Part shown: positions 35,080 through 56,318 of the stretch, one piece after another | How positions within the stretch are numbered: position 1 is the first letter of the stretch | How the letters are laid out: each line of letters opens with the position of its first letter | Assembly (NCBI RefSeq): GCF_015350975.1 | Contig: NZ_JADKRX010000002.1 | Coordinates: 594,004-658,003, forward strand | Origin: Curtobacterium sp. VKM Ac-1395 | Lineage (GTDB): Bacteria > Actinomycetota > Actinomycetes > Actinomycetales > Microbacteriaceae | Reading direction: 5' to 3' | Length of the DNA stretch: 64,000 bases | Translations under genes and position numbers: made by a program | Notes under the pieces: model-generated | What the model saw: only the letters and a program-made list of their open reading frames with translations | The model's database searches: none | Told to the model about the DNA's origin: nothing

Positions 35080-36321
35080 CTAGGTGCGCCGGACGGTGTC
35101 CGGCTCGGGCGCATCGTCGGTGATGGTCTCGAGTCGGTCGCCGAGCGCGGACCGCACGACGTCGATGAGGACGTGTCGTGCGCCGTGGAGGACGGGGGTG
35201 TCGGGGACGCCGGGTGCCACCACGGCCGTGGACCAGCGCGAGCGGGTCCGGAGCCAGGCGGTCACGGCGGCGGCCAGCGCGGGGCCGCCCGCGATCCCGG
35301 TCGGGCCGTGCAGCACGACCGTCTCGGGGTCGGCGACGGCGAGGGCGGGGAGCACGTTGTGCCCGACGCGCTCGCCGAGGGCGGTCGTGAAGGGGTGCTG
35401 CGCGGGGAGTCCCGGCAGCTGCGGGAGCACCTGACGCCAGTCGGCAGCACTGCCGTCCGGTGCGGTGATCCCGTGTTCGGCGGCGAGGGCGATGATCGCG
35501 GACTCGGAGATGAGGTCCGCGACGATCGTCGCCGTCGGGTCGAGGGGGAGCGCGTCGGCGGGCACGCTCAGGTAGCCGATCTCGCCCGCGGCGCCGGAGG
35601 CCCCGGCGTGCAGGCGGCCGTCGAGGTCGAGCGCCATGCCGAGGCCCTCCGCCATCCAGAACAGCGCGAAGGAGCCGGGGGTCCGGCCTGCGCCCATGTT
35701 CCGCTCGGCGATCGCCGCGAGGTTGGCGTCGTTCTCGATGACGACCCGCACGCCGAGGGCGTCCGACAGGGTCCGGGAGACCTGCTCGCGCGGCCACCCG
35801 GGCAGGCCGTCGGTGAAGATGAGGGTGTCCGTTGCGTGGTCGACGCTGGCCTGCACGCCGACGGCCACCGCGGTGACCAGGTCGGGGTCGATGCCGGCGG
35901 CCGCGGCGGCACGGCTGACGGCAGCCGCGACGATGTCCTCGCCGGGAGCGCGCATCTCGTGCTCGTCCATCCGGTGCTCGGCCACCGGGTAGGACCGGCC
36001 GCTCGCGTCCACGACGGTGGAGCGGACGTCCACGAGCTGGACGTCCACGGCGACGGCGAGGTCGCGGTCGGTGATGGCCTCGTACACGACGGCGCTCGGG
36101 CCGCGGCGGCCGGCCTGGGAGGCGGTGCCGGCTTCGCGGAGGAGCCCGGCGGCTTCGAGTCGGCGGATGATCTCCGCGGCGGTCGGCTTGCTGAGGCCGG
36201 TGCGCTGGGCGATCTCGTTGCGGGTCATCGGGCCGTCGTCGAGCAGCAGGCTGAGGGCGGCTCGGTCGTTGAGCACGCGGAGGAGGGCCGGCTGCCCTGG
36301 GGTGCGTCCTCGTGGTGTCAT
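35080..36321 (-). CDS. ROK-family transcriptional regulator (NagC/XylR type)
   Basis: A 413-residue sugar-responsive regulator. The N-terminal winged helix-turn-helix reads LLDDGPMTRNEIAQRTGLSKPTAAEIIRRLEAAGLL. The ROK domain follows with DVQLVDVRSTVVDASG and VIENDANLAAIAERN. The usual zinc-binding CxCGxxGC motif of ROK proteins is not visible after the ASGAAGEIGYL segment, as in some divergent regulators. ATG 36321 is leaderless, with TACAGT 7 bases upstream. It likely controls the importer operon downstream and itself. Confidence 0.88.
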   Translation of the reverse strand: MTPRGRTPGQPALLRVLNDRAALSLLLDDGPMTRNEIAQRTGLSKPTAAEIIRRLEAAGLLREAGTASQAGRRGPSAVVYEAITDRDLAVAVDVQLVDVRSTVVDASGRSYPVAEHRMDEHEMRAPGEDIVAAAVSRAAAAAGIDPDLVTAVAVGVQASVDHATDTLIFTDGLPGWPREQVSRTLSDALGVRVVIENDANLAAIAERNMGAGRTPGSFALFWMAEGLGMALDLDGRLHAGASGAAGEIGYLSVPADALPLDPTATIVADLISESAIIALAAEHGITAPDGSAADWRQVLPQLPGLPAQHPFTTALGERVGHNVLPALAVADPETVVLHGPTGIAGGPALAAAVTAWLRTRSRWSTAVVAPGVPDTPVLHGARHVLIDVVRSALGDRLETITDDAPEPDTVRRT

Positions 36322-36328
36322 GTCGAGG

Positions 36329-36361
36329 ACTGTAACGGACAACCTTCTTTACTGAAAGGTT
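36329..36361 (-). promoter_or_regulatory. ROK promoter with inverted-repeat operator
   Basis: TACAGT (36329-36334, minus) is the -10. Just upstream, AACCTT (36341-36346) and AAGGTT (36356-36361) form an inverted repeat over the expected -35 position. ROK repressors use AT-rich sites of this look, so autoregulation is likely. A diverged copy lies at 37759-37784. Confidence 0.5.
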
Positions 36362-36540
36362 TGTTCACAGTTCCGAAACACGCGTTCCGCTGGGCGAAAC
36401 ACGGGCGCTGCGCCCCGCGACGGCGGTGGGTGGTCGTTTCGCGCGCGGCGGGTCGTTTCGCGCGTAGGAGGTCGTTCCTTCCGACCCGCTACGCGCGATC
36501 CCGCCTGCCAGCGCGCGCGTCGCTCCACCATGGGAACGTG

Positions 36541-36993
36541 ATGAGTTGGGTCGCCGGGGAAGAGCGAGTCGAGCGGATCGCGCAGTTCGGCATCCGGCAG
36601 CGGGTGGACGACGACCCGGAGCGTGACACCAAGACCGTCGTCTGGGGCGGGCGGTCGTCGATCGACGCCGACATCGACGATCTCCTGGCGGATCTGCCGG
36701 CGCATCTCGGGTGGCACGTGACGATCGACGTCGATGTCCTTGATCCCGCGTACATGCCGAGCACGGGCACTCCCGTACCCGGAGGGTTCAGCACCCCCGA
36801 GCTCATCGACCTCGTGTGTCGGCTGGTGTCACGACGCCGGATCGTGGGCGTCGACATCGTCGAACTCATCGGCGAGGGCGAGGGCGCTCAGCGATCGGCG
36901 CTCGCAGCCGCGGACGTGCTGGCTCGGACGCTCGACGCCGCGCTCAGGCCGTCAGCGCATCGTCTGACAGGAACGGCGTGGTCGTCCCACTGA
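36541..36993 (+). pseudogene. Ureohydrolase (arginase/agmatinase) C-terminal fragment
   Basis: The frame encodes HVTIDVDVLDPAYMPSTGTPVPGG, the hallmark metal-binding segment of arginase-family enzymes (DxDxLDPA), and the following helix-rich end STPELIDLVCRLVSRRRIVGVDIVELIGEGE. The first 130 or so residues of the enzyme, with the GDH and DAHxD metal motifs, are missing. Upstream are short repeats (GGTCGTTTCGCGCG at 36432 and 36451) instead of a start region. The 3' end overlaps the convergent acetyltransferase gene by 50 bases. I read it as a broken remnant. Confidence 0.7.
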
Positions 36994-37495
36994 GGTGGTC
37001 CTCGCGGAGGATCCCGTACGCAACGGAGTCCCTCGGCGCCCCGTCGTCCACCGGCCACGTCCGCCGGTAGTGCGCCTCCTTCACCCACCCGTTCCGTACG
37101 AGTGATCTGCGCATGGCGACGTTGTCGTCGCGGGTCTGGGCCTCGATCCGTGTCACGTCGGGGAACGCAGCGAAGACGTGGTCGGCGAGCACGCGGATGA
37201 GTACGGTGCCGATGCCCTGCCCACGCGAACGCTCTGAGAGGCGGACGTCGATCATCGGAGCGGAGTCGTCGAGGTCATCGAGCACCACGATGCCGGTGAA
37301 CGCCCCGTCCACGTCGACCCGGAGCAGCGCATGCTCGGGCGCGGAGAACGCACCGTCGTCGATCCGCCTCTCGATGGCGTCGCGCGTCGGCGTGGAGGAC
37401 ACGTGGAACGGGAACCGGTTCGTGGTCAGGAACTCGATGAGGACGGCTCGGTCCGATGGGCCGGTCGTGTCCATCGGGTGGAGTTTCAGTTCCAT
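36944..37495 (-). CDS. GNAT family N-acetyltransferase
   Basis: A 183-residue acetyl-CoA-dependent acetyltransferase. The acetyl-CoA loop is SERSRGQGIGTVLIRVLADHVF, preceded by IVVLDDLDDSAPMIDVRLSE. The later motif VTRIEAQTRDDNVAMRRSLVRNGWVKEAHYRR is typical of the RimJ/RimL-like branch, so a protein N-terminus or small amine could be the substrate. ATG 37495 is leaderless (TACGGT, 37502-37507 minus, 6 bases upstream). It lies in the disturbed block between the ROK gene and the scar at 37537. Confidence 0.85.
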   Translation of the reverse strand: MELKLHPMDTTGPSDRAVLIEFLTTNRFPFHVSSTPTRDAIERRIDDGAFSAPEHALLRVDVDGAFTGIVVLDDLDDSAPMIDVRLSERSRGQGIGTVLIRVLADHVFAAFPDVTRIEAQTRDDNVAMRRSLVRNGWVKEAHYRRTWPVDDGAPRDSVAYGILREDHLSGTTTPFLSDDALTA

Positions 37496-37536
37496 GCAAT
37501 GACCGTACAGGCATCGCGCGAGGACGACGGGCGCTC

Positions 37537-37845
37537 CGCTCGTGCGGGTGGACGAGGACCGGTACGGCGGCGCCGTGCTCTCGGGCGACTGGCGCTCGCG
37601 GGGCGTGAAGAAGGTGCGGCAGGTGCCGCTCGAGCGGGACATGGTGCTCGAGGACCCGGCCTCCGGCTGGGCCGGCGCGGCGGCTCGGTCGTCGAGCACA
37701 CGGAGGAGGGCCGGCTGCCTGGGGCGCGTCCTCGTGGTGTCCTGTCGAGGACTGTGACGGACGACCTTCTTCACTGAAAGGGTTGTTCACAGTTCTGGAT
37801 CACGCGTTCCGCTGGGCGAAACACGGGCGCTGCGCCCCGGGACGG
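37537..37845. pseudogene. Chimeric scar: DUF3097 gene 5' end fused to ROK gene 5' end
   Basis: 37537-37681 matches the start of the DUF3097 gene (from 39077) almost base for base, with one difference seen in about 144. At about 37678-37683 it switches to a copy of the ROK gene 5' end and upstream region (matching about 36256-36420) with about 13 differences in 165. The ROK start codon is destroyed (ATG to AGG) and the DUF3097 promoter is absent. GCGG is shared at the junction. Neither part can be expressed as a full gene. Confidence 0.85.
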
Positions 37846-37888
37846 ACAGGAGGCTCGGTGCCGGCTGGCACCGAGCCTCCTGTCCGTC
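37841..37888. terminator. GGAGGC-family palindrome, terminator of the alcohol dehydrogenase gene
   Basis: Perfect 22-base arms (37841-37862 and 37867-37888) with loop GGCT; the arm ends in GGAGGCTCGGTGCC. It begins 25 bases after the minus-strand stop at 37913. Best example of the family in this window. Confidence 0.75.
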
Positions 37889-37912
37889 ACCTGGTCGCGT
37901 CGGACGCGACCG

Positions 37913-38965
37913 CTACGGGCGCAGCAGCACCTTGATCGCGCGACGCTCGTCCATGGCGGCGTACGCCTCGGCGGCCTGCTCCAGCGGCAGCTCGAGGTCG
38001 AAGACCCGCCCCGGGTCGACCGCACCGGAGAGCACGTCGGGGAGCAGCTCCTCGATGTACGCGCGCGCCGGGGCCATGCCACCGCCGACCGTGATGTTCT
38101 TCGCGAACAGGAACGGCATCGGCAGCTCCGGGTCGCCGGCGGGCACGCCGACGTAGCCGACCGCACCACCGGGGCGGACGACGCGGAGGGCCTGGTCCAT
38201 GCTCTCCGCGGTGCCGACGGCCTCGAGGGCGCAGTCGGCCAGGTCGCCGTCGAGCAGGTCGCGGACGGCCTGCACACCCTCGTCGCCGCGGGTGTCGACG
38301 ACGTCGCTCGCGCCGAAGTCGCGGGCCAGTGCCTGCCGGTCGGCGTGCCGGCTCATCGCGATGATGCGCTCGGCGCCGAGCCGCTTCGCCGCGAGGACCG
38401 CGGACAGCCCGACCGCGCCGTCGCCGACCACGACGACGGTCTTGCCCGGGCCGACGCCCGCCGAGACCGCTGCGTGGTGGCCGGTGGAGAACACGTCGGA
38501 GAGGGTGAGGAGCGAGGGCACCAGCGCGTCGTCCACCGGGCCCGGCACGACGACGAGCGTCGCCGCGGCGTCCGGCACGCGGACGTACTCGGCCTGGGCG
38601 CCGCCGAGGGGCAGGCCGTACGCGTCCGGCGTCACGCCGAACGTGGAGCCGTGCTCGCACCCGGACGTCATGCCGTGGGCGCAGGCCTGGCAGGTGCCGT
38701 CGTTCGTGGTGAACGGCGCGATCACGAAGTCGCCCTGACGGAGCGACCCGGCCGCGTCGCCGACCTGTTCGACGACGCCGACGAACTCGTGGCCGATCGC
38801 CCGGGGCTCCTTCGTGTCGCGGACACCGCGGTAGGGCCAGAGGTCGGAGCCGCACACACAGGCGGCGACGACGCGGACGACGGCGTCGGTGGGAGCGAGG
38901 AGCTGGGGGCTGTCGCGGTCCTCGACACGGATGTCACGAGGGGCGTGGATGACTGCTGCGCGCAC
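37913..38965 (-). CDS. Zinc-dependent alcohol dehydrogenase (MDR family)
   Basis: A 350-residue medium-chain dehydrogenase. Catalytic zinc ligands are in ACVCGSDLWPYRG and IGHEFVG. The structural-zinc lobe is reduced to CQACAHGMTSGCEHG, with three cysteines where four are usual. The NAD(P) Rossmann fold is VVVVGDGAVGLSAVLAAKRLG. The substrate is unknown; sequences of this type are often annotated as IMP-dehydrogenase-like or threonine-dehydrogenase-like. GTG start. It lies alone between the scar and the DUF3097 gene. Confidence 0.88.
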   Translation of the reverse strand: MRAAVIHAPRDIRVEDRDSPQLLAPTDAVVRVVAACVCGSDLWPYRGVRDTKEPRAIGHEFVGVVEQVGDAAGSLRQGDFVIAPFTTNDGTCQACAHGMTSGCEHGSTFGVTPDAYGLPLGGAQAEYVRVPDAAATLVVVPGPVDDALVPSLLTLSDVFSTGHHAAVSAGVGPGKTVVVVGDGAVGLSAVLAAKRLGAERIIAMSRHADRQALARDFGASDVVDTRGDEGVQAVRDLLDGDLADCALEAVGTAESMDQALRVVRPGGAVGYVGVPAGDPELPMPFLFAKNITVGGGMAPARAYIEELLPDVLSGAVDPGRVFDLELPLEQAAEAYAAMDERRAIKVLLRP

Positions 38966-39074
38966 GGGAGTTGCCTTTCAGTTGCGGTGTTCGTACCGGC
39001 GCGTGGGGACGCGCCGGGTGACGGAGCGTGGGGAACGCGCCGTCTGCCGGCGCCGTTGCGGGACCACTCGACAG

Positions 39075-39080
39075 TACGCT
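39075..39080 (+). promoter_or_regulatory. -10 box (TACGCT) of the DUF3097 gene
   Basis: TACGCT ends 7 bases before GTG 39088. In the duplicated copy at 37537 the corresponding bases read CTCCGCT, so the promoter was not copied. Confidence 0.55.
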
Positions 39081-39087
39081 CGTGCGG

Positions 39088-40041
39088 GTGGACGAGGACC
39101 GGTACGGCGGCGACGTGCTCTCGGGCGACTGGCGCTCGCGGGGCGTGAAGAAGGTGCGGCAGGTGCCGCTCGAGCGGGACATGGTGCTCGAGGACCCGGC
39201 CTCCGGCTGGGCCGGCGCGGTCGTCGGGCTCGAAGCCGGGAACATCGCGCTCGAGGACTGGAAGGGCCGCACCCGCGCCTTCCCCTTCGAGGGGCAGTTC
39301 CTGCTCGAGGGCGAACTCGTCACGCTCGGCCGTCCGCAGGCCCCGGTCGGGCGGTCTGCCGCCGCTGCTGCTGCTCGCGGTGGTCCCGCTGGGCCTGTCG
39401 GTTCCGTCCATGCGGACTGGAGGCCCGGGGCTGCGCCGGCTGTCCGGCAGGCGTCCGACGGTGGTCGCCTCCGCACCGCGTCGGGGTCGTTCGCGGTCGA
39501 GCAGCAGCGCGCCCGCGTGGCGCTGCCCTCGCGGATCATGGTCGAGGGCAAGCACGACGCCGAGCTCGTGGAGAAGGTCTGGGGAGCGGACCTGCGCGTG
39601 GAGGGCGTCGTCGTCGAGGAGCTCTCCGGCGTGGACAACCTCGCTTCCGTGCTGGACGACTTCCAGCCCTCTCGCGAGCGTCGGGTCGGGGTGCTCGTCG
39701 ACCACCTGGTGCCCGGGTCGAAGGAGTCCCGCTTCGCCGACGCCGTGATGCGCGGGAAGTGGGGTGCGCACGTGCTCGTCGTCGGGCACCCCTTCGTCGA
39801 CGTCTGGCAGTCGGTGAAGCCCGCGCGCGTGGGCCTGCAGGCGTGGCCGACGATCCCGCGGTCGATCGAGTGGAAGGCCGGCATCTGCCAGGCGCTCGGG
39901 TGGCCGCACGCGGAGCAGGCCGACATCGCCAGGGCCTGGCAGCGGATCCTCGGGCAGGTGCGCACGTTCGCCGACCTCGAGCCGCAGCTGCTCGGCCGGG
40001 TCGAGGAGCTCATCGACTTCGTCACCGAGCCGGTCACCTAG
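39088..40041 (+). CDS. DUF3097 family protein, TOPRIM-like segment
   Basis: A 317-residue protein conserved in actinobacteria, function unknown. The N-terminal 70 residues (GDWRSRGVKKVRQVPLERDMVLEDPASGWAGAVVGLE) look like a small beta domain. A Gly/Ala-rich linker (about residues 92-130) contains one arm of the dispersed repeat (encoding ADWRPG). The second domain has RIMVEGKHDAELVEKVWG and VGVLVDHLV, the EGKxD pattern and acidic strand end of TOPRIM nucleases, followed by VLVVGHPFVDVWQSVKP. Leaderless GTG. A near-identical fragment of its 5' end lies at 37537-37681. Confidence 0.82.
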   Translation: MDEDRYGGDVLSGDWRSRGVKKVRQVPLERDMVLEDPASGWAGAVVGLEAGNIALEDWKGRTRAFPFEGQFLLEGELVTLGRPQAPVGRSAAAAAARGGPAGPVGSVHADWRPGAAPAVRQASDGGRLRTASGSFAVEQQRARVALPSRIMVEGKHDAELVEKVWGADLRVEGVVVEELSGVDNLASVLDDFQPSRERRVGVLVDHLVPGSKESRFADAVMRGKWGAHVLVVGHPFVDVWQSVKPARVGLQAWPTIPRSIEWKAGICQALGWPHAEQADIARAWQRILGQVRTFADLEPQLLGRVEELIDFVTEPVT

Positions 40042-44912: not shown

Positions 44913-45757
44913 CCGCCACCGCGACCACACCCGGCCGCCAGCTGCCCGTCGTCGTCACGGCGCCGCTCGCCGTGTGGTTCGAGGACGGCTGGACCGTCAC
45001 CAAGCGGAACCTCATCAAGATCAAGCGGTCGCCGGACATGCTCGTCTTCGCGGTCCTGCAGCCGATCATGTTCGTGCTGCTCTTCAGCCAGGTCTACGGC
45101 GGCGCGATCGCGGTCCAGGGCACGGACTACACGCAGTTCCTGATGGCCGGCATCTTCGCCCAGACGGTCGTCTTCGGGGCGACGTTCTCCGGGTCCGCGA
45201 TGGCGCAGGACCTCAAGGAAGGGCTCATCGACCGCTTCCGAACGCTGCCGATGTCGGCGTCGGCGGTGCTCGTCGGACGGACGAACAGCGACCTCGTCCT
45301 CAACACGATCTCGATGGTCATCATGATGGCCACCGGCTTGGCGGTCGGGTGGCGCGTGAACTCGTCGCCGCTGGAGTTCCTGGCCGGCGTCGCCCTGCTG
45401 CTGCTGTTCAGCTACGCCTTCAGCTGGGTGATGGCGTTGCTCGGGATGAGCGTGAAGACCCCGGAGGTCATCAACAACGCCTCGTTCATGATCCTGTTCC
45501 CGCTGACGTTCATCTCGAACGCGTTCGTGCCGAGCGACACCCTGCCGCTCGTGCTCCGCGTGTTCGCCGAGTGGAACCCGGTGTCCTCGCTCGTGCAGGC
45601 CGCGCGCGAGCTGTTCGGCAACGTGGGGTCGGCGCCCGTGCCCGACATCTGGACGATGCAGCACCCGGTGGTGACGGTGCTCATCGGCATCGCGGTGCTG
45701 CTGGTCGTGTTCGTGCCGTGGGCGGTGAACAAGTACACGCGGATCAGCTCGAAGTAG
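44909..45757 (+). CDS. ABC-2 permease (DrrB type)
   Basis: A 282-residue ABC-2 permease with six helices. Typical segments are [36 protein letters not shown] and the conserved [61 protein letters not shown] matches the DrrB signature near the end. It is translationally coupled to the ATPase gene (ATGA). Together they form an exporter. Confidence 0.92.
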
Positions 45758-45809
45758 CCCGCTGTCCACCGGGGCGTCCGGGGAGTGCGTCGCCGCCACC
45801 CGGACGCCC

Positions 45810-45815
45810 TACGAT
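45810..45815 (+). promoter_or_regulatory. -10 box (TACGAT) of the APC permease gene
   Basis: TACGAT ends 6 bases before GTG 45822; leaderless start. Confidence 0.55.
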
Positions 45816-45821
45816 CAGCGT

Positions 45822-47753
45822 GTGACCGCGACAGATGCCCGGATCAGACGCTGGATGCTCCAGGACGACAGCGGCGCCGACCACCAGGGCCCCCACCAGG
45901 TCGAGGTCGACAAGACCCACCCGTGGTGGCGGGTGATGTGCCTGACGGGCGTCGACTACTTCTCCACCCTCGGCTACCAGCCCGCGATCGCCGCGCTCGC
46001 CGCCGGGCTGCTGTCCCCGATCGCGACGATCGTGCTCGTCCTCGTGACGCTGTTCGGCGCCCTGCCCGTGTACCGCCGGGTGGCGCAGGACAGCTTCCGC
46101 GGCGCCGGGTCGATCATGATGCTCGAGAAGCTGCTGCCCTGGTGGGCGGGCAAGCTGCTCGTGCTGGTCCTGCTCGGGTTCGCCGTGACGGACTTCATGA
46201 TCACGATGACGCTCTCCGCCGCCGACGCGACCGCGCACATCGCCGAGAACCCCTTCACCCCGCACTGGTTCACCGAGATCCCGGTGCCGATCACCCTCGT
46301 GCTGCTGCTCCTGCTCGGCGTCGTGTTCCTCCGCGGGTTCAAGGAGGCCATCGGCATCGCCACGGGGCTCGTCGCGGTGTTCCTCGCGCTGAACGCCGTC
46401 GTGGTCGTCGTCGCACTGCTCCACGTGGCCGAGCGCCCGACCGTCGCCAGTGACTGGTGGAGCGGCCTGACCGCGCAGCACAGCAGCCCGCTCGCCATGG
46501 TCGGCATCGCCCTGCTGGTCTTCCCGAAGCTCGCGCTCGGCCTGTCCGGGTTCGAGACCGGCGTCGCGGTGATGCCGCAGGTCCGGGGGGACGCTGCCGA
46601 CGAGGGGCAGCCCCGACCGCTCGGGCGCATCCGCGGCACGCAGCGGCTGCTGACGGTCGCGGCCGTCATCATGAGCACGTTCCTCATCACGTCGTCGATC
46701 GCGACGACGTTCCTCATCCCGCAGCACGAGTTCCAGCCGGGCGGCCAGGCGAACGGGCGCGCCCTGGCGTTCCTGGCGCACGAGTACCTCGGGCCGGCGT
46801 TCGGCACCGTGTACGACGTCTCGACGGTCGCGATCCTGTGGTTCGCCGGCGCGAGCGCGATGGCCGGGCTCCTCAACCTCGTGCCGCGCTTCCTGCCGCG
46901 GTACGGCATGGCGCCGCAGTGGGCCCGGGCGACCCGACCGCTCGTGGTCATCTTCACGCTCATCGCCTTCGTGATCACGCTCATCTTCCAGGCCAGCGTC
47001 GACGCGCAGGGCGGCGCGTACGCCACGGGTGTCCTCGTGCTCATCACCAGCGCAGCCGTCGCGGTGACGCTGTCAGCGCGTCGTCGGCAGCAGCGGAAGC
47101 GCACGATCGCCTACGCCGTCATCGCGGTCGTGTTCATCTACACGACGATCGCCAACGTCATCGAGCGGCCCGACGGCGTCCGGATCGCGGCCGTCTTCAT
47201 CGTCGCGATCGTCGTCGTGTCGCTGGTCTCGCGGGTCCGGCGGTCGTTCGAGCTGCGGGCATCGTCGATCGAGCTCGACGCCACCGCACGGCAGTTCGTC
47301 GAGGCCGACGCCGACCAGTTCAGTTCCGTGTGCATCATCGCGAACGAACCCGGAGCCGGCACCGCGGCGGCGTACCGGGCGAAGGGGCGCGAGGAACGCC
47401 GCGACTCCGGCATCCCGGCCCGCGTGCCCACGATGTTCCTCGAGGTCCTGCCCGCCGACTCGTCCGACTTCGAGGAGGACCTGGTCGTCGAGGGCCACGT
47501 CGTGCACGGGCACCGCGTGCTCCGGGTCCGCTCCGGCAACGTGCCGAACACGATCGCGTCGACGCTGCTGGCCATCCGCGACATCGCCGGGGTCGTCCCG
47601 AGCATCTACTTCGAGTGGAACGAGGGCAGCCCGATCCGCAACGCGATCCGCTTCGTCTTCACGGGCGTCGGGGACGTCGCCCCGGTGACACGCGAGGTCC
47701 TGCGCGAGGCCGAACCCGAGGTGGGCCGCCGGCCGAGCGTCCACGTGTCCTGA
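45822..47753 (+). CDS. APC-superfamily amino acid permease with soluble C-terminus
   Basis: 643 residues. The first 470 hold about 11-12 helices of an APC transporter, opening with [30 protein letters not shown], where the unwound helix 1 ([11 protein letters not shown]) binds substrate. The last 170 residues are soluble and include [12 protein letters not shown] and [20 protein letters not shown]. Such a domain is seen in actinobacterial APC proteins of unknown substrate. Amino acid import is the default prediction. Convergent with the ligase gene. Confidence 0.85.
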
Positions 47754-47824
47754 CGCCCAGCCCAGCCCAGCCCCGGACGGGGCGCGCGGTGCCCTGCCAG
47801 CGCGGGGCGGGCCTCCCGTCTGGA

Positions 47825-49510
47825 CTACTTGCCCAGGATCTGGTCCCGCACCTTGCGCCGCAGGACCTTGCCGATCATGGAACGGGGCAGGTCCTCGACC
47901 ACGACGACCCGGCGCGGCACCTTGTACGCCGCCATGTGCTCGCGGGCGTAGGCCCGGAGCGCGTCGGGGTCGAACGTGGCGGGGTCGGTCGGCACGACCG
48001 CGGCGACGACCTGCTCGTTGCCACCGGTGGTGATGCCGACGACGGCGACCTCGCGGACGCTGGGGTGCTTGACGAGGGTGTCCTCGACCTCGGTCGGGGC
48101 GACGTTGAAGCCGCCCGTGATGATGAGCTCCTTGAGGCGGTCGACGATGTGCACGAAGCCGTCGGCGTCGATCGCGACGATGTCACCGGTGCGGAACCAG
48201 CCGTCGGCGGTGAAGACCTCGTCCGTCGCCTCGGCCTTGCCCCAGTAGCCGCTGAACACCTGCGGGCCGCGGACCTGGAGCTCGCCGGCCTCGTCGGTGC
48301 CGAGGACCTTGGAGGCGTCGTCCGGGTCGACCACACGGGCCTCGGTGGAGGGCAGCGGCAGCCCGACCGCGCCGAGTCGTCGGGAGTCGGCGACGGGGTT
48401 GGCCATGAGCACGGGGGAGCACTCGGACAGGCCGTAGCCCTCCACGAGGTAGCCGCCGGTGCGGGCCTCCCACGGTTCGATGACGTCCTGGGAGAGCGGC
48501 ATCGCGCCGGAGATGCCGATGGCGATGCCCTTGAGCGAGACCTTCTTCGAGTCTGCGGCGTGCTGCAGCCGGGTGTAGATCGGCGGCACGGCGGGCAGGA
48601 ACGTCGGCGGACGCTTCTTGATCGCGGCCAGGACGAGGTCCGGGTCGAACGCGGGGAAGAGCACGAGGCGTCCGGCGATGCTCATCGCGAAGGTCAGGCA
48701 GAGCGTCAGGCCGTAGGCGTGGAACATCGGCAGGACCGCGTGCACGACGCTGTTGTCACCGGCCTGGATCTGCGGGATCCAGGCACGCGCCTGTGCGGCG
48801 TTCGCCATCAGGTTGCCGTGGCTGAGGACCGCGCCCTTCGGGGTGCCCGTCGTGCCGGAGGTGTACTGGATCAGCGCGACGTCGTTCGTCGTCGGGCGCG
48901 GGTGGCGCTTCGGCAGGCGGCGGGTGTACACGAGGTCGTCCCACGTCGTCGTCCCGCGGACCTTCGTCGTGAGCTTCGCGCGGGACTCGCGTGCCTTCGC
49001 GACCGGCAGCGACAGGGCCAGGCGGGTGGTGCGGGGCATCGCACGGGTCAGGTCGACCGACACGACGGCGTCGAGGGCGACGTCGGCGGGGAAGTCCTGC
49101 AGCGTCGCGACGGACTTGTCCCAGACGACGGCGACACGTGCTCCGTGGTCCTCGAACTGGTGGCGGAGCTCGCGCGGCGTGTAGAGCGGGTTGTGCTCGA
49201 CGACGATCGCCCCGAGCCGCAGGATCGCGTAGAACGCCACGACGTGCTGCGGGCAGTTCGGCAGGACCAGGGCCACGCGGTCACCGGCAGTCACGCCGAG
49301 CTTGCGGAGGCCGTTCGCCGCGCGGAGGACCTGCTCCTCGAGGTCGGCGTACGAGGTGGTCCGGCCGAAGAACTCCAGCGCGACGAACTTCGGGAACCGC
49401 GTCGCGGAGGTCTCCACGAGGTCGAAGAGCGACCCCGTCTGCTCCTCGATGTCGTCCGGGACCCCGGAGGCGTAGGCGGCAAGCCAGGGACGGTCGTTGT
49501 CGATGCTCAC
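47825..49510 (-). CDS. Long-chain fatty acid-CoA ligase (AMP-binding)
   Basis: Activates fatty acids to acyl-CoA through an acyl-adenylate. The 561 residues carry the P-loop-like LIQYTSGTTGTPKGAVLSHGN, the linker YGLSECSPVLMANP, GWFRTGDIVAIDADGFVHIVDRLKELI and the C-terminal catalytic lysine in RSMIGKVLRRKVRDQIL. The GTG at 49510 reads VSIDNDRPW and is leaderless (TAGGTT, 49517-49522 minus, 6 bases upstream). The chain-length range cannot be judged. A small CCCCG/CGGGG hairpin (47771-47782) lies between it and the convergent permease gene. Confidence 0.92.
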   Translation of the reverse strand: MSIDNDRPWLAAYASGVPDDIEEQTGSLFDLVETSATRFPKFVALEFFGRTTSYADLEEQVLRAANGLRKLGVTAGDRVALVLPNCPQHVVAFYAILRLGAIVVEHNPLYTPRELRHQFEDHGARVAVVWDKSVATLQDFPADVALDAVVSVDLTRAMPRTTRLALSLPVAKARESRAKLTTKVRGTTTWDDLVYTRRLPKRHPRPTTNDVALIQYTSGTTGTPKGAVLSHGNLMANAAQARAWIPQIQAGDNSVVHAVLPMFHAYGLTLCLTFAMSIAGRLVLFPAFDPDLVLAAIKKRPPTFLPAVPPIYTRLQHAADSKKVSLKGIAIGISGAMPLSQDVIEPWEARTGGYLVEGYGLSECSPVLMANPVADSRRLGAVGLPLPSTEARVVDPDDASKVLGTDEAGELQVRGPQVFSGYWGKAEATDEVFTADGWFRTGDIVAIDADGFVHIVDRLKELIITGGFNVAPTEVEDTLVKHPSVREVAVVGITTGGNEQVVAAVVPTDPATFDPDALRAYAREHMAAYKVPRRVVVVEDLPRSMIGKVLRRKVRDQILGK

Positions 49511-49618
49511 AGGTCCAACCTAGCGGCGGGGCCCGCGGCAGGCTGTGAGCCACGGCCCGTCATCCGGGGCACGCGTCGCGTGCGGCCCGCTGTCAGGGGT
49601 CGGACGGACGATGGGAGC

Positions 49619-50554
49619 ATGTCCTTCGTCACCGGTGCGTTCCGCTCCCGCCTCCAGGCCACCTTCACGGGCAGCGACCAGGGCAGCCCGGCATGGGTCG
49701 ACGAACTCGAGCAGGGCACGGACGCGGGCTTCTTCGGCCCGGGCAGCGCGACGTGGTCGGTGCACGGCGGCCAGCAGACGATCGTCGCCGGCGTCCGCGC
49801 GCTCCTCGTGCAGGCCCTGCACCCCGGTGCCCTCGCCGGCGTGGCCGACCACTCCCGCTACCGCGAGGACCCCTTCGGCCGCCTCGCCGGCACCATCCGC
49901 TGGATCTACACGGTCTCGCACGGCGACACCGCCACGGCGACCGGGGCGAGCAACTGGGTGCTGCGCCTGCACGAGCGTGTCCGCGGGCAGTACGTCGACG
50001 GCCACGGCGTGACGAAGGACTACGCCGCGAACGACCCCGACCTGGCCCGCTGGGTCCACCTGGCCTTCACCGACGCCTTCCTCCGCGCCGCGCAGCAGTG
50101 GGGCGAACCGATCCCCGGCGGCGCCGACGCCTACGTCCGCGAGTGGGCGATCGCCGGACGCCTGATGCACGTCGAGGACGCCCCCGAGTCCGAAGCCGAG
50201 CTGCGCGCCCAGATGGACGGGTACCTCGACCGCGGCGAACTCGCGGTCACGCCCCGCACGCGCGAGGTCGTCCGCTTCATCAGGAACCCGCCGCTCGCCC
50301 GCATGCTCCGGCCGGGCTACCAGGCGCTGTTCCAGGGTGCCGTGTCGACGCTCGACCCGCGGCACCGGTCGATGCTCGGCCTGCGGTCGCCCGGTGTCGG
50401 TCCGGTCGAGTTCCCCGTCGCCAGGACGACGGGCCTGGTCCTCGACGGCATCGGCGCCGTGCTCGGCAACCAGACCGGCACGGAGCGCGCAGCGCTCACG
50501 CGCATCGCGCGGCTGGAACGCGAGGCGGGGAGCCCGGAGCAGCCGGCGGCCTGA
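49619..50554 (+). CDS. DUF2236 (oxygenase MpaB-like) protein
   Basis: A 311-residue protein of the DUF2236 family, related to the fungal MpaB and latex-clearing oxygenases that bind heme. Family segments are ALLVQALHPGALAGVADHSRYREDPFGRLAGTIRWI, with histidines that may bind heme, WVHLAFTDAFLRAAQQWG and VVRFIRNPPLARMLRPGYQALFQGAVSTL. Its reaction in bacteria is not established. The ATG is followed from GACGAT, a poor -10, at 6 bases; a weak GGGAG also lies there. A GGAGGC palindrome follows. Confidence 0.82.
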   Translation: MSFVTGAFRSRLQATFTGSDQGSPAWVDELEQGTDAGFFGPGSATWSVHGGQQTIVAGVRALLVQALHPGALAGVADHSRYREDPFGRLAGTIRWIYTVSHGDTATATGASNWVLRLHERVRGQYVDGHGVTKDYAANDPDLARWVHLAFTDAFLRAAQQWGEPIPGGADAYVREWAIAGRLMHVEDAPESEAELRAQMDGYLDRGELAVTPRTREVVRFIRNPPLARMLRPGYQALFQGAVSTLDPRHRSMLGLRSPGVGPVEFPVARTTGLVLDGIGAVLGNQTGTERAALTRIARLEREAGSPEQPAA

Positions 50555-50568
50555 CACGCCCACAGACG

Positions 50569-50608
50569 GACGGGAGGCCCGGTGTCAGCTGACACCGGGC
50601 CTCCCGTC
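50569..50608. terminator. GGAGGC-family perfect palindrome between convergent genes
   Basis: Forty bases, perfectly self-complementary: arms from GACGGGAGGCCCGGTGTC (50569-50586) around AGCT. It separates the DUF2236 gene from the convergent aldo-keto reductase gene. Confidence 0.75.
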
Positions 50609-50623
50609 TGCTCCGTGGTGGCG

Positions 50624-51715
50624 TCAGAAACCGGACGGCACCCGAGGCGTGTAGGCGGACTCGAGTCGCGTGACCTCGTCCTCGGTGAGCTCGATCGCGG
50701 ACGCGGCGACCGCGTCGTCGATGTGGTGCTCCTTGGTCGCGCCGATGATCGGCGCGGTGACGGCGTCCTTGCCGGCGACCCAGGCGAGTGCGATCTGCGC
50801 CATGCTGACGCCCCGCTCCGCGGCGATCGACTCGACGGCGCCGACGATCGTGCGGTTGGCGTCCTCGTCCTGGCGGTAGAGGGTCTTGCCGAACTCGTCG
50901 GTGGTGGACCGCGAGCCGGAGCCCTCGGCGTCCCAGGGGCGGGTGACCTTGCCGCGGGCCAGGGGGCTCCACGGGATCACGCCCACACCGGTGGCGGCGC
51001 AGAAGGGGTGCATCTCGCGCTCCTCCTCGCGCTCGAGCAGGTTGTACTGGTCCTGCATGCTCACGAACTTGGTCCAGCCGTGCAGCTCGGCGGTGTGCTG
51101 CATCTGGGCGAACTGCCACGCCCACATGCTGCTGGCACCGATGTAGCGCGCCTTGCCGGCCTTGACGACGTCGTGGAGGGCCTCCATCGTCTCCTCGACC
51201 GGGGTCAGCGGGTCGAAGCGGTGGATCTGGTACAGGTCGACGTAGTCCGTGCCGAGGCGGGTCAGCGAGGCGTCGATCTCGTGCATGATCGCGACGCGGG
51301 ACAGGCCGGCACCGTTCTTGCCGGGGCGCATCCGGTTGAAGACCTTCGTGAAGACCTGGACGTCCTCACGCGGGGCGAGCTCCTTGAGGAGCGTCCCGGT
51401 GATCTCCTCGCTCGAGCCGTCGGAGTACACGTTGGCGGTGTCGAACGTCGTGATGCCGGCGTCGAACGCACGGCGGACGAAGGGCCTCGCGGCGTCGATG
51501 TCCACGCTCCAGGCGTGGGAGCCGCGGTCCGGGTCGCCGTAGGACATCATCCCGAGGACGACGTTGCTGATCTCGAGTCCGGTGTGGCCGAGGCGCACCG
51601 TCCCCGCCGTGGTGCTGCTGTCGTTCGTGGTGCTGGTGGTGTCGTTCGTGGTGCTGGTGGTGTCGTTCGTGGTGGTGCCTGCGCTTCCGGGTGTCGTGTC
51701 GCTCGTGGAGGTCAT
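50624..51715 (-). CDS. Aldo/keto reductase with repeat-bearing N-terminus
   Basis: A 363-residue NADPH-dependent reductase (TIM barrel). Motifs: GITTFDTANVYSDGSSEEI with the Asp and Tyr of the catalytic tetrad, GTDYVDLYQIHRFDPLTPVEETMEAL, VSMQDQYNLLEREEEREM and GVIPWSPLARGKV. The first 36 residues are a low-complexity Thr, Asn and Asp stretch from a 21-base tandem repeat at 51621-51676 (TTNDTTS units). The ATG at 51715 overlaps the stop of the DinB-type gene by 4 bases, so they form an operon. Substrate unknown. Confidence 0.9.
   Translation of the reverse strand: MTSTSDTTPGSAGTTTNDTTSTTNDTTSTTNDSSTTAGTVRLGHTGLEISNVVLGMMSYGDPDRGSHAWSVDIDAARPFVRRAFDAGITTFDTANVYSDGSSEEITGTLLKELAPREDVQVFTKVFNRMRPGKNGAGLSRVAIMHEIDASLTRLGTDYVDLYQIHRFDPLTPVEETMEALHDVVKAGKARYIGASSMWAWQFAQMQHTAELHGWTKFVSMQDQYNLLEREEEREMHPFCAATGVGVIPWSPLARGKVTRPWDAEGSGSRSTTDEFGKTLYRQDEDANRTIVGAVESIAAERGVSMAQIALAWVAGKDAVTAPIIGATKEHHIDDAVAASAIELTEDEVTRLESAYTPRVPSGF
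51621..51676 (-). repeat. 21-base tandem repeat, 2.7 copies, coding TTNDTTS
   Basis: Units at 51621-51641 and 51642-51662 and a partial third, inside the 5' end of the aldo/keto reductase gene; all in frame. Confidence 0.85.
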
Positions 51716-52278
51716 GCAGCCACTCTGGCATCGCGCCCTGTGACGGCGAGCAGGCGGACCTGGAGCGGGGCGTCCTCGCCGACCTCGACCGGCGCGGCGT
51801 ACAGCCCGGTCTCCGCGAGGGACTCGATCTGCGGTTCGAAGTGGTGCCACACCGCGCGGACGAGTTCGTCCGGCAGGGTCTCGTCGCTGCCGGTTGCCCG
51901 GGCGAGGTCCCACGTGTGGATCGCGATGTCCGAGGTCTGCTCCGCGAGGTACTCACCCGCCGGCACCACGTCCGTCGCCAGGTGCACGGGGGTGTCCTGC
52001 GGTGCCTTCGCCCAGGCCTCGGTCGCGGCGCTCGCGAAGCGCTGCCACTCGGCCACGAGGTCCTCGCCCACGGGCTCCAGGTCCGCCTTCGCCTGCTCGT
52101 GGTCGCACCCGGTGAGCAGGTGCGGGATCCACCGCTGCTCGTCGATGACGTGCGTGACGAGGTCCCTGGTGGTCCATTCGGAGTCGGGCGTCGAGGCGTC
52201 CCACGCGGTGACGGCGGCGACGCGGCGGCCGAACTCGGCTGCCGCCAGTGCTTGCAACGCGATCCAGTCGGTGGCCAT
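51712..52278 (-). CDS. DinB-like metal-binding protein (TIGR03086/mycothiol-dependent maleylpyruvate isomerase N-domain type)
   Basis: A 188-residue four-helix-bundle protein. WTTRDLVTHVIDEQRWIPHLL contains the first metal His, and EQTSDIAIHTWDLARATG the HxxDLA-type second site of TIGR03086 proteins. Members of this class are thought to be mycothiol-linked transferases in actinobacteria. ATG 52278 has AGGAG 8 bases upstream, which favours it over the ATG at 52299. TACCGT (52357-52362 minus) is the probable -10. Co-operonic with the aldo/keto reductase. Confidence 0.82.
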   Translation of the reverse strand: MATDWIALQALAAAEFGRRVAAVTAWDASTPDSEWTTRDLVTHVIDEQRWIPHLLTGCDHEQAKADLEPVGEDLVAEWQRFASAATEAWAKAPQDTPVHLATDVVPAGEYLAEQTSDIAIHTWDLARATGSDETLPDELVRAVWHHFEPQIESLAETGLYAAPVEVGEDAPLQVRLLAVTGRDARVAA

Positions 52279-52533
52279 GGGGGTGCTCCTGTTCGTCATG
52301 GTGTGGCGTGCAACCGGCCTGGCGCGCTGCGGATTCCCGCGCCCGGCCGTGGTGCCACGGTAGCGGGGTGGGCGCGGGCGCGGCGCGCGGGCGGTTGCGG
52401 GTGCGGCGGTCGCGGGTGCGGGGGCGCGGCGCGCGGGCGGTTGCGGGTGCGGCGGGGTCCGGGCGCGGGCGCGCGGGCGGGTGGGGGTGCGTGGGTGGGC
52501 GGGCGGGTGCGGGTGGGTGAGTGCCCCGGGCCC

Positions 52534-52594
52534 GCGAGCGGGCGAAACACCGTGGTGGGTTGGATGAGCGACCCGGCGGTTCCGCCCGCTCACC
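52534..52594. repeat. GAGCGGGCG-family palindrome, copy A
   Basis: Arms GAGCGGGCG (52536-52544) and CGCCCGCTC (52583-52591); inner sequence starts AAACACCGTGGTG. Confidence 0.75.
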
Positions 52595-52729
52595 CGGCCG
52601 GGTCAGGCAAGTGGAGGCCCAAGCGCGGAATCGGGCAGGTGACGCAGGCGGATGAGGGCGGCCGCGGCGCGGCGCACCCGGACGCGGGAGACCGTGGCAC
52701 ACGTGGCACCCGCGGCACCCGTGGCACCC

Positions 52730-52789
52730 GTGAGCGGGCGAAATACCGCGGTACGCGGGCGGGCTGACCCTGCACTTCCGCCCGCTCAC
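52730..52789. repeat. GAGCGGGCG-family palindrome, copy B
   Basis: Arms GTGAGCGGGCG (52730-52740) and CGCCCGCTCAC (52779-52789); inner sequence starts AAATACCGCGGT. Confidence 0.75.
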
Positions 52790-52892
52790 CCGTTGGGTGG
52801 TGCCGCCTGGAGGCTCGGCTCGGCTCCCCGACGCCGGCCCGCGACGATCGTGCGTCTCCCGCGGAAGCGAGTGATCGAGCGGGTGAGCGGGT

Positions 52893-52948
52893 GAGCGGGC
52901 GGAAGAGCGCAGTGCGTTGACCGAGCGACCACGGTGTTCCGCCCGCTC
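52893..52948. repeat. GAGCGGGCG-family palindrome, copy C (reverse orientation)
   Basis: Perfect 12-base arms GAGCGGGCGGAA (52893-52904) and TTCCGCCCGCTC (52937-52948). Read on the minus strand its inner part (CACCGTGGT) matches copy A. Confidence 0.75.
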
Positions 52949-53052
52949 GCCCAACCGCAGGAGGGCCCACGGGGTACGTCATTGTGGAAGCGGTCGGAGT
53001 ACCGGCGTGCAGAACGACCTTGCTCGCTCAACGCCTGGCAGCGCATCCGGAC

Positions 53053-53095
53053 ACGACGAAGCCCCGGCGCCGCAAGGGCGTCGGGGCTTCGTCGT
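53053..53095 (-). terminator. Terminator hairpin of yceI
   Basis: Arms ACGACGAAGCCCCG (53053-53066) and CGGGGCTTCGTCGT (53082-53095), extended inwards by GCGCC/GGGCG with small mismatches. It starts 48 bases after the stop at 53144. Confidence 0.75.
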
Positions 53096-53143
53096 GCTGG
53101 GTGAGGAGTGTTCGTGCTCTCAGTCAGCGAGTGGATCCGAGGA

Positions 53144-53704
53144 CTACGCCGCCTGGAGGACGAACTGGACGTCGAGGTTGATCGTGACGTCGTTGCCGAG
53201 GGTGAAGCCGCCGGCCTCGAGGGCCGCGTTCCAGTTCACGCCGAACTCGGTGCGGTCGATCTTGGTGGTCGCCTCGGCGCCGAGCTTGGTCTGGCCGTAG
53301 CCGTCGGTGGTCACGCCGCCGAACTCGGTCTTCAGGGTGACGTTCTTGGTGACGCCGCGCAGCGAGAGCTCGCCGTCGATGAGCATGTCGTCGCCGTCCT
53401 CGCGGATGCCGGTGGAACGGAACGTCATGTGCGGGTGCTCCTCAGTGAGGAAGAAGTCACCGGTGGCCAGGTGCTGGTCGCGCTGCGGCTGGTTCGTGTT
53501 GATGCTGGAGACGTCGATCGAGGCCTCGAGCGTGGTGTCGAGGGGGTTCTCGGCGGTGACCAGGGTGGCGTCGAACTGCTCGAACTTGCCCTTGACCTTG
53601 CTGATCGCGAGGTGGCGGACCGAGAAGCTGACCTCGGAGTGGGTCGGGTCGACCTTCCAGGTGCCGGTGACGTAGCCGGGGATGGCGGAAGCGGTGAGAG
53701 CCAT
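53144..53704 (-). CDS. YceI family lipid-binding protein
   Basis: A 186-residue lipocalin-like beta-barrel that binds isoprenoid or other lipids in its family. Signature segments: GTWKVDPTHSEVSFSVRHLAISKVKGKFEQFDATL, HPHMTFRSTGI, GELSLRGVTKNVTLKTEFGG and TKIDRTEFGVNWN. There is no signal peptide, so it should stay in the cytoplasm. The ATG has a GGAAGG site. A possible MarR-type operator lies about 105 bases upstream. Confidence 0.92.
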   Translation of the reverse strand: MALTASAIPGYVTGTWKVDPTHSEVSFSVRHLAISKVKGKFEQFDATLVTAENPLDTTLEASIDVSSINTNQPQRDQHLATGDFFLTEEHPHMTFRSTGIREDGDDMLIDGELSLRGVTKNVTLKTEFGGVTTDGYGQTKLGAEATTKIDRTEFGVNWNAALEAGGFTLGNDVTINLDVQFVLQAA

Positions 53705-53808
53705 GGTGTTGTCCTTCCGGGACGACGGAGTCTGAGCGACGCGAGCGAACCGGAGGCCGATCCATGCGCCCGCATCGAGGTGATGCTACGCCATTCTGCA
53801 CCTGTTTA

Positions 53809-53822
53809 GTTGAAGCGTCAAC
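53809..53822. promoter_or_regulatory. Possible MarR-type operator upstream of yceI
   Basis: GTTGA-AGCG-TCAAC, an inverted repeat in an AT-richer patch (TAGTTGAAGCGTCAACCA), sits between the AbiEi-like gene stop and yceI. MarR-family sites often look like this and often control yceI, but no regulator gene is adjacent. Confidence 0.35.
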
Positions 53823-53828
53823 CATTGT

Positions 53829-54761
53829 TCACGCAAGCGTGGCCAGACGTCTGTCGTGGGGCCCCCGCCGACCAGCCTCGAGCAACCGACGGACGCGCCA
53901 CACGAAGCGTTCGACACCGCGTCCCACATCGTCCCCGGTCGTCCGGACCAACCACCAGTCGACGTCCTTCAGGTGCTCACCGCGCGTGAGGTCCTTCTTG
54001 AACGTGTCCGGATCGGTCCGGTGGAGGTCGCTCTCGTACTCGATCGCCACTCGGGCCTCGGGATACGCGAGGTCGACGCACGCGATCCACTGTCCGTCGA
54101 CCACGACGTCGTGGTTGAGCACGGGCTCCGGGAGCCCACGGCGGACCAGCGCCAGCCGCGCACGAGTCTCGCCGGGCGACCTGGACCCGACTCGGATCTC
54201 CTCGAGTGCCGCACGGAGGTTCACGATCCCTCGGATCCCGCGCCGCCGCCGGACTGCCGCCACGAGCTCGTCCAGTGTCACCCAGCGGAGCCAACCGACG
54301 AGCGCGTCACCGGCGATGACCAGTTCGTCGAGTGTGAGCATCGCGCCGAGCGCGACGAACGTGTCCGCCGGGCTGCTGATCGGGACGCCTCTGGCCTGCG
54401 AGCGGCGGACTGTCCCGGATCGGGCCCGATGCCCCTTGGCCCCCCGGACGCGCAGTGCCTGGTCGACGCCGATGGTGGTCACGTGCAGACGGAGGTCCCG
54501 CTCGATGCGCCGGGGGAGCGGCACGCCGAGGATCGCTGCGGCAGTCGTGTGGCTGAAGACCTGGTCGGGACGGAGGCGCGGTGCGAGTGCGCGGGCACGT
54601 TCGTCCACGGCGGTTGGTTGCGTCGCGGAGCGGGTCCCGTGGAATGCCCGGACGAGGTCCTTCGCCTCGAGCCGGCCGCGCGAGACGCCTCGGTGGAGTG
54701 CGTCCCGAACCCGGAACGAGGCGTCTCGCAGCACCATCGGGAGCGGTCGTCGTGCGGTCAT
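53829..54761 (-). CDS. AbiEi-antitoxin-like protein with endonuclease-fold C-terminus
   Basis: A 310-residue protein. The middle HTTAAAILGVPLPRRIERDLRLHVTT and RVRGAKGHR match the winged-helix and substrate-like region of actinobacterial proteins labelled type IV AbiEi antitoxin domain. The last 100 residues resemble a very-short-patch or DUF559 endonuclease fold: VVVDGQWIACVDLAYPEARVAIEYESDLHRTD, with D...ExE-like acids, then DVDWWLVRTTGDD. No partner AbiEii toxin gene is adjacent, so a toxin-antitoxin role is not supported here. ATG 54761; no clear -10 seen. Confidence 0.65.
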   Translation of the reverse strand: MTARRPLPMVLRDASFRVRDALHRGVSRGRLEAKDLVRAFHGTRSATQPTAVDERARALAPRLRPDQVFSHTTAAAILGVPLPRRIERDLRLHVTTIGVDQALRVRGAKGHRARSGTVRRSQARGVPISSPADTFVALGAMLTLDELVIAGDALVGWLRWVTLDELVAAVRRRRGIRGIVNLRAALEEIRVGSRSPGETRARLALVRRGLPEPVLNHDVVVDGQWIACVDLAYPEARVAIEYESDLHRTDPDTFKKDLTRGEHLKDVDWWLVRTTGDDVGRGVERFVWRVRRLLEAGRRGPHDRRLATLA

Positions 54762-54860
54762 CACCACATGCTCGTGCCGAGCCGTCGTCGGGAGGCCGGC
54801 CCGAGCCTCCCGAGTGCATGACTGTTGACGCGACCTGGCTGTGGAGGAACGCCGGCTCGC

Positions 54861-54919
54861 GCGAGCGGGCGCTTCCTCGGGGTCGCTCCGAGGACCGCCC
54901 TGGTGTTTCGCCCGCTCGC
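54861..54919. repeat. GAGCGGGCG-family palindrome, copy D
   Basis: Arms GCGAGCGGGCG (54861-54871) and CGCCCGCTCGC (54909-54919). On the minus strand the inner part begins AAACACCA, like copy A. Confidence 0.7.
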
Positions 54920-54926
54920 GGGAGAC

Positions 54927-54975
54927 GCACCCCGCACCCCGCACCCCGCACCCCGCACCCCGCACCCCGCACCCA
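54927..54975. repeat. 7-base tandem repeat GCACCCC, seven units
   Basis: Six perfect units and one ending in A, in the spacer before the aldo/keto reductase at 55051. Length variation by slippage is likely. Confidence 0.9.
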
Positions 54976-55050
54976 CCCCCGCACCCCCCTCCGCAACCAG
55001 GCACCCGCAGGGCCCCGCAGCCCCTCGGTGGAACCACTAACGTCGGAGCC

Positions 55051-56055: not shown

Positions 56056-56098
56056 GCGAGCAACACGCACAAGCAACACGCAACACGCAAGAACCTCC

Positions 56099-56140
56099 GG
56101 ACGGGAGGCGCGGTGCCAGCTGGCACCGCGCCTCCCGTCC
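56099..56140. terminator. GGAGGC-family perfect palindrome after the aldo/keto reductase gene
   Basis: Forty-two bases, fully self-complementary; each half carries GGACGGGAGGCGCGGTGCC. A run of CAACACGCAA-like repeats (56061-56090) precedes it. Confidence 0.75.
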
Positions 56141-56302
56141 GTCGTTCCCGAGCCGCTTACACGACGCACCGCGTTCCTGCGCCGGAACGTCCGCAATGCG
56201 CCGGAACCAGGCCGTCGGACGTACCCCTCGTGAACGGCAGGAGTCCGGGACCTGGCAGACGGCTGGGCAACCGTGTACCCCACCCAAACCACCGAGGCGA
56301 CA

Positions 56303-56317
56303 CCCCCGAATCGGGGG
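56303..56317. promoter_or_regulatory. Palindrome CCCCCGA-A-TCGGGGG at the GtrA start
   Basis: A 15-base palindrome one base before the GtrA ATG (56319). It covers the ribosome-site position, so it could be an operator or a translation-blocking hairpin for the whole surface-glycan operon. A related CCCC-AATTC-GGGG lies near 19504-19516. Confidence 0.4.
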
Positions 56318-56318
56318 C

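Follow-up and report, generated by a model that had tools for sequence, protein, structure and literature searches.

A tandem duplication with two alleles in it is generally unstable, and most known examples come from selection experiments. Single-crossover (Campbell-type) integration places an inserted block between direct repeats of its target, and homology-facilitated illegitimate recombination combines homologous exchange on one side with a near-homology-free join on the other. In Streptococcus pneumoniae, the transformation merodiploid clone R3022 is described as carrying codY+ beside codY::trim in a 3,276-bp tandem duplication without flanking repeats (PMC3784515). The subject here is the slot between a gene for a ROK-family regulator and a DUF3097 gene in a 64,000-nucleotide stretch of Curtobacterium sp. 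VKM Ac-1395 (contig NZ_JADKRX010000002.1, positions 594,004 to 658,003; the whole stretch is called the window, and positions are counted within it). In this slot, a chimeric scar joins copies of the starts of both anchor genes and separates two different sets of cargo. Whichever route was taken, two alternative alleles of the slot have very probably been stacked here.

Clone R3022 may be regarded as the nearest experimental analogue found. As described, it likewise combines alternative alleles of a single locus within a short tandem duplication, which arose on transformation with DNA of the other allele. R3022 is laboratory-selected and recent, whereas the scar in the window arose in nature, is eroded and lies between copies that differ in their genes. 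The open-licence literature yielded no Curtobacterium precedent that was recognised as relevant, which is not proof of absence. What the window shows is a well-preserved trace, left in nature by recombination of a known type, and not a new element or system.

A mechanical direct-repeat search aligned 37537-37680 (B') with 39077-39220 (B, the start of the DUF3097 gene) at 143 of 144 identical nucleotides, and 37679-37845 (A') with 36256-36423 (A, the 5' end and promoter of the ROK gene) at 92% identity over 168 nt. The copies are joined tail to head: B' tracks B up to 37680 and A' tracks A starting at 37679, with a shared GG. The join order is the downstream anchor (DUF3097 start) followed by the upstream anchor (ROK start), as for a tandem duplication. 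The original prediction, made from the sequence alone, had placed the copies at 37537-37681 and 37678-37845 and had recognised this junction order, B' then A'; both points are confirmed, with the limits given above. Used as query against its own 3.9-Mb genome (E 0.001), the 309-bp scar found B (1e-68), A (2e-64) and its own sequence, and nothing else. When the 64-kb window was compared with itself (E 1e-8), no other direct repeats of at least 100 nt appeared. A 161-bp query spanning the join found matches in 64 of 66 genomes of the genus, with a match through the join in the window's genome only; elsewhere, matches to the copied parts cover one side of the join each, overrunning it by at most 17 bases. 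The second anchor copies are not intact, 144 bp and 168 bp being left. Intact duplicates would be expected in a fresh merodiploid and not in an old, eroded one, and the window is claimed as the scar of a merodiploid, not as a living one. A working ROK gene stands on the left and a working DUF3097 gene on the right, and both cargo genes, one in the interval between A and B' (X) and one in that between A' and B (Y), are still open frames. Pfam bears out the predicted contents of the two intervals: an arginase-family C-terminal fragment and a GNAT acetyltransferase in X, and a zinc-type alcohol dehydrogenase (ADH) in Y.

The region left of DUF3097 was taken from 65 other genomes of the genus, and the 64 with DUF3097 there were classified by eye (G059 gave no DUF3097 match at the slot). 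Y occurs without X in 54 of the 64. The order is ROK-ADH-DUF3097 in 27 of these (including G010 with a broken ROK and G031 with a 0.8 kb gap) and ADH-DUF3097 in the other 27, where the stretch retrieved shows no ROK; some of these stretches are short (3 kb only in G065). X occurs without Y in two, G033 and G053, which stand closest to the window in the trees of the anchor genes. The order in G033 is ROK-GNAT-DUF3097; in G053 about 8 kb separates ROK from GNAT, and the cluster there ends in a full arginase-family gene. G025 and G026 have a ROK-DUF3097 spacing of 180 bp with none of these gene sets between, G062, G052 and G030 have ADH and GNAT together in one interval (ADH then GNAT in G062 and G052), and in G048 additional genes separate ROK from ADH; the G011 locus is split over two contigs, and G055, treated below, forms a class of its own. 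In G010 (L097:8566-11276) several frames break both ROK and the solute-binding protein, perhaps through sequencing errors. Relatives with a single interval, which the original prediction had proposed as a check, are thus found, and its view of two alternative occupants placed side by side holds, since each occurs alone between the same anchors and the ADH source differs from that of the anchors. Neither of the two results that it had named as refuting came about.

The borders of the stacked region were compared with those of relatives. At A|X, collinearity with G053 and G033 extends to 36521, beyond which about 7.4 kb of G053 is missing from the window; at X|B' it extends over about 240 bp, with 92% identity to G033 and 87% to G053. 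All five ROK-ADH genomes tried are collinear with the window at A'|Y, at 76-83% (83% over 430 bp in G058), and G001 is so at Y|B, with 94% over 332 bp. B'|A' is the sole border without a counterpart in relatives, the internal deletion in X aside. Only matches that spanned 85% or more of the protein entered the trees (61 for ADH, 64 for DUF3097, 8 for GNAT and 37 for ROK, window included). The window groups with G053 and G033 in the ROK tree (100/100) and in the DUF3097 tree (92/99, not starred), and with G001, which is another species, in the ADH tree (100/99). For DUF3097, the approximately unbiased (AU) test rejected a grouping of the window with G001 (p 0.014; the group was picked after seeing the tree, and G002 was excluded). 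In the genomic background (window 45000-60000), identity to G033/G053 is 92-95% for the most part, with one stretch at 86%; against G001 the longest two matches are at 83% and 81% and the following ones at 82-91%. The segment 38946-39045, mostly upstream of ADH, is 95% identical to G001, 76-81% to G027/G028 and 48-62% to the remaining aligned genomes. The DUF3097 side shows homologous exchange: the ADH gene and its upstream sequence are of the G001 type, and from about 39075 on DUF3097 takes the form found in G033/G053. Synonymous divergence (dS) to G001 is 0.305 for ADH and 0.384 for DUF3097, and dS to G033/G053 is 0.10-0.17 for ROK, DUF3097 and the solute-binding gene.

The two relics differ in how far they have changed. 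A and A' are unlike at 12 of the 159 sites in 36256-36414, and a 1-nt deletion accounts for one of the 12; A' has lost both candidate ROK start codons. At 78 sites invariant in 37 relatives, A is altered at none and A' at 7 (P 0.014), with 5.9 expected for constraint-blind changes. Nine of the 12 A' states are absent from all 37 relatives, and A' and A have common bases missing in G033 and G053, namely a T at 36262 (present in 2 of the 37 relatives) and five sites in 36406-36414; because of these common bases, A' most likely derives from the window's own lineage. The common bases and the private states lead us to reject divergence in the donor as the source of the A/A' differences, and A' looks from its sequence like a decayed relic and not donor-like. 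For the same reasons, the unequal divergences do not support the earlier proposal that the anchors have different histories. The predicted count of one base between the DUF3097 parts was correct (1/144), and that of about 13 between the ROK parts is corrected to 12/159.

One further change relative to G033 and G053 lies directly upstream of B', at 37536. The hexamer TACGCT begins 7 bases 5' of the DUF3097 GTG (39075-39080) and is present in G033 and G053; its B' counterpart at 37535-37540 reads TCCGCT. TACGCT looks like the -10 element of a leaderless transcript, in which case the 37536 change would fall within that element. The change counts of A' and B' differ significantly (Fisher P 0.003; 0.012 with B' as 2/150), so A' looks older than B' on these counts, which would be unexpected if both had turned relic in one event. 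A role for selection on B' through an extended GNAT frame (open reading frame, ORF, 36944-37774) was set aside, since G053 has this frame open across its own DUF3097 start.

A second case was found at the same locus in G055 (L085). The order there is upstream sequence (U), solute-binding protein, ROK, a 3' part of ADH (6662-7093), copies of the upstream sequence (U', 7094-7249 and 7341-8100), a ROK promoter remnant, a G048-like stretch, a full ADH gene and DUF3097, with the stacked region spanning L085:6662-11658. The remnant, at about 8105-8231, is 76% identical to G048 over 127 nt; against window A it has 23 of 26 identical positions, a score that none of 200 shuffles reached, in one of the 22 pairs compared. 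Before the full ADH gene, 3.4 kb is 92% identical to the G048 interval. The internal copies are 93% identical for the ADH parts and 90% for the U parts, and the second copy is without the ROK and solute-binding genes. G055 and the window are alike in the tandem-duplication join order and the different cargo of each copy; G055 has other breakpoints and a larger unit. For the six relatives that the two best-match lists share, identity is 83-86% to U' and 88-89% to U, the lower U' identity being what decay would be expected to give. In our reading, G055 has been caught midway through the course proposed for the window. No further direct repeat between ROK and DUF3097 came out when the fetched regions were compared with themselves (100 nt, 80%, E 1e-12).

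Other relatives were searched for relics by local alignment against 200 shuffles, in 22 stretch-query pairs, the window scar serving as the positive control. The stretches of G062, G052 and G030 gave neither an A nor a B relic; G055 against A and, owing to how the stretch was chosen, G025 against A scored higher than every shuffle. In blastn with A and A' (E 1e-4), 37 loci matched, all with ROK, and no A relic was found in ROK-less genomes.

We lean towards the two-step form of a natural tandem merodiploid scar, in which a larger duplication holding both alleles was trimmed later. The ROK-DUF3097 slot would have had alternative occupants in this lineage, either X (a gene cluster, now reduced to the arginase-family fragment, with GNAT) or Y (ADH). 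Recombination with incoming DNA carrying the other occupant would have placed ROK-A-X-B' and A'-Y-B-DUF3097 in tandem. The duplicated unit was most likely larger at first, with a second ROK and a second DUF3097; the spare ROK copy would have decayed first, and a recent deletion with a 2-bp overlap would have removed the redundant middle, leaving B'|A'. A larger, trimmed duplication is favoured over one crossover because A' looks older than B'. The tandem order, the borders, the single-occupant relatives, the discordant trees and the decay of A' are read directly from the genomes, and from there we infer the incoming DNA, the size of the first duplication and the trimming. The genome encodes Ku, so end joining is possibly available. 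It also encodes a ComEC-family protein; the same search matches 10 of 14 control genomes, including E. coli, and thus says little on competence. Several observations weigh against this account. A recent import of ADH from G001 is ruled out by its dS of 0.305. The dS of GNAT (0.30 to G053 and 0.38 to G033) exceeds that of the anchors, so X has had its own exchange history. Gene conversion of B' by B could have produced the age gap between the relics. In G030, G052 and G062, X and Y share one interval, in which no A or B relic was found, so scarred stacking is not the sole route. Finally, single-occupant alleles are known from other genomes and none from within the window's own species, which is represented by one strain.

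The alternatives differ mainly in how many events they require. One-step additive integration, a possible course that we consider the less probable, would have an incoming A'-Y fragment recombine at the DUF3097 start and become end-joined, by the 2-bp overlap, to the resident DUF3097 at B'. It needs a single new border, G033/G053 similarity resumes where homologous exchange would be expected, and the overlap and the encoded Ku suit it; its prediction of equal relic ages, however, is at odds with the A' and B' counts unless B' was converted by B or the donor already carried ROK as a relic. Homology-facilitated illegitimate recombination or a circularised fragment are possible variants, and they correspond to the single crossover with incoming DNA of the original prediction: its stacking of two alleles is supported by the order, the relatives and the ADH source, while the single crossover as simplest reading is weakened by the unequal relic ages. 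Homology-facilitated illegitimate recombination is described for 3- to 10-bp segments (PMC6382021), and the window block exceeds 1.3 kb; given the age gap, the join in the window need not be the integration event. The block is flanked by B' and B, as in Campbell-type integration, but no vector or integrase was found in it and it carries the copy of the other anchor. An ancestor with both occupants in a row (ROK-ADH-cluster-GNAT-DUF3097, as in G062), duplicated and then reduced, the first copy losing ADH and cluster and the second losing cluster and GNAT, is improbable. The row itself has parallels in G062 and G052, with ADH then GNAT within one interval, but a secondary deletion is unlikely to have restored an ADH|DUF3097 border collinear with G001 over 332 bp at 94%, and the window and G062 ADH genes have separate tree positions and a dS of 0.49. 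An assembly artefact, with a mixed culture contributing both alleles or contigs joined wrongly, is very improbable even in a draft of 18 contigs: the scar lies within an 835-kb contig, the contamination estimate is 0.27, a 2-bp overlap would presumably hardly mislead an assembler, and A' has changes seen in 0 of 37 relatives. Two dispersed families adjoin the scar (36432-36521 and 37841-37889), which might suggest a widely dispersed repeat; this reading and chance likeness are ruled out in practice, since the copied parts match just two partners in the genome.

On the plus strand, the gene order at the locus is solute-binding protein (-), ROK (-), arginase-family fragment (+), GNAT (-), the B'|A' scar, a hairpin, ADH (-) and DUF3097 (+). 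Coordinates are collected in Table 1.

Table 1. Features between and including the two anchor genes, in window positions.
Feature	Position	Strand	Evidence
ROK-family regulator, intact, left anchor	35080..36342	-	Pfam ROK + HTH; groups with G053, G033 in tree at 100/100
A, original ROK 5' end and promoter	36256..36423	-	over 150 bp: 98% to G053, 97% to G033
Dispersed intergenic repeat right of A	36432..36521	.	end of ~7.4-kb deletion relative to G053 falls here
Arginase-family C-terminal 150 aa	36541..36993	+	Pfam Arginase, profile 150-276 of 280; 94% aa to G053
GNAT acetyltransferase, interval X	36944..37495	-	Pfam Acetyltransf_1/_3
B', truncated copy of DUF3097 gene start	37537..37680	+	99% to 39077-39220
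B'/A' join, 2-bp overlap GG	37679..37680	.	
A', copy of A, truncated and decayed	37679..37845	-	92% to A
Perfect 22-bp hairpin	37841..37888	-	inverted repeat; with flanks folds at -57.9 kcal/mol
Zinc-type ADH, interval Y	37913..38965	-	Pfam ADH_N, ADH_zinc_N; pairs with G001 in tree, 100/99
ADH/DUF3097 intergenic, G001 type	38966..39076	.	G033/G053 similarity starts ~39075
B, original DUF3097 gene start	39077..39220	+	154/154 identical to G033 from 39077
DUF3097 gene, intact, right anchor	39082..40041	+	Pfam DUF3097_N and _C

The hairpin is probably the terminator of the ADH gene. It belongs to one of two dispersed intergenic families near the scar, that of a long perfect hairpin (37841-37889); the other is a ~90-bp repeat rich in TTTCGCGCG (36432-36521). 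Copies of the two adjoin at several genome sites, for example C14:66869/66991, C11:434566/434656 and C11:79079/79186. Pfam at 0.001 found the arginase fragment, GNAT and ADH alone in the block, with no integrase, recombinase, vector or other mobility gene; ten further overlapping ORFs of the block were included in the scan, with GNAT as the only match, and ORFs below 80 aa and the 37887-38855 (-) frame overlapping ADH were excluded.

The arginase-family fragment is a leftover of a gene cluster that is complete in G053. In G053 (L042:4799-12314) and G062 (L067:4836-12308), the ROK-DUF3097 slot holds a cluster resembling those for ribosomally synthesised and post-translationally modified peptides (RiPPs). 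Its genes encode a 72-aa ORF ending ...LGGSRPRQIS, a pyridoxal phosphate (PLP) enzyme of the Orn/Arg-decarboxylase type, a 475-aa protein, two ABC exporters and the arginase-family protein, which has an N-terminal extension of about 115 aa. The 475-aa protein gave no match in Pfam or NCBIfam, families being scanned in G053 only. The cluster may encode a peptide-arginase pathway whose core is very short. With E 1e-60 as the cut-off, one of 299 sampled genomes of the family had a match to the arginase-family protein, namely the window's own fragment, G053 and G062 evidently lying outside the sample. In G027 (L102:5322-12260) and G028 (L103:5211-12172), GNAT occurs twice, about 6 kb apart, as 666-bp direct repeats of 90% identity beside an arginase-family gene at another chromosomal place.

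The locus is a concrete case of a slot for alternative cargo that gained two occupants, and it can be followed in strain collections. The duplication has been frozen long enough that the two alleles can be read from it, together with the join and the order in which parts decayed, and a second genome is alike at the same locus. A broader proposal, which is speculative and rather doubtful at present, is that rival cargo in the ROK-DUF3097 slot, including biosynthetic clusters, has repeatedly been stacked by incoming DNA and then trimmed, with the window and G055 as stages in which the scar has yet to disappear and G030, G052 and G062 as finished products. If this is true, stacking would be a regular route from either/or cargo to both in these bacteria.

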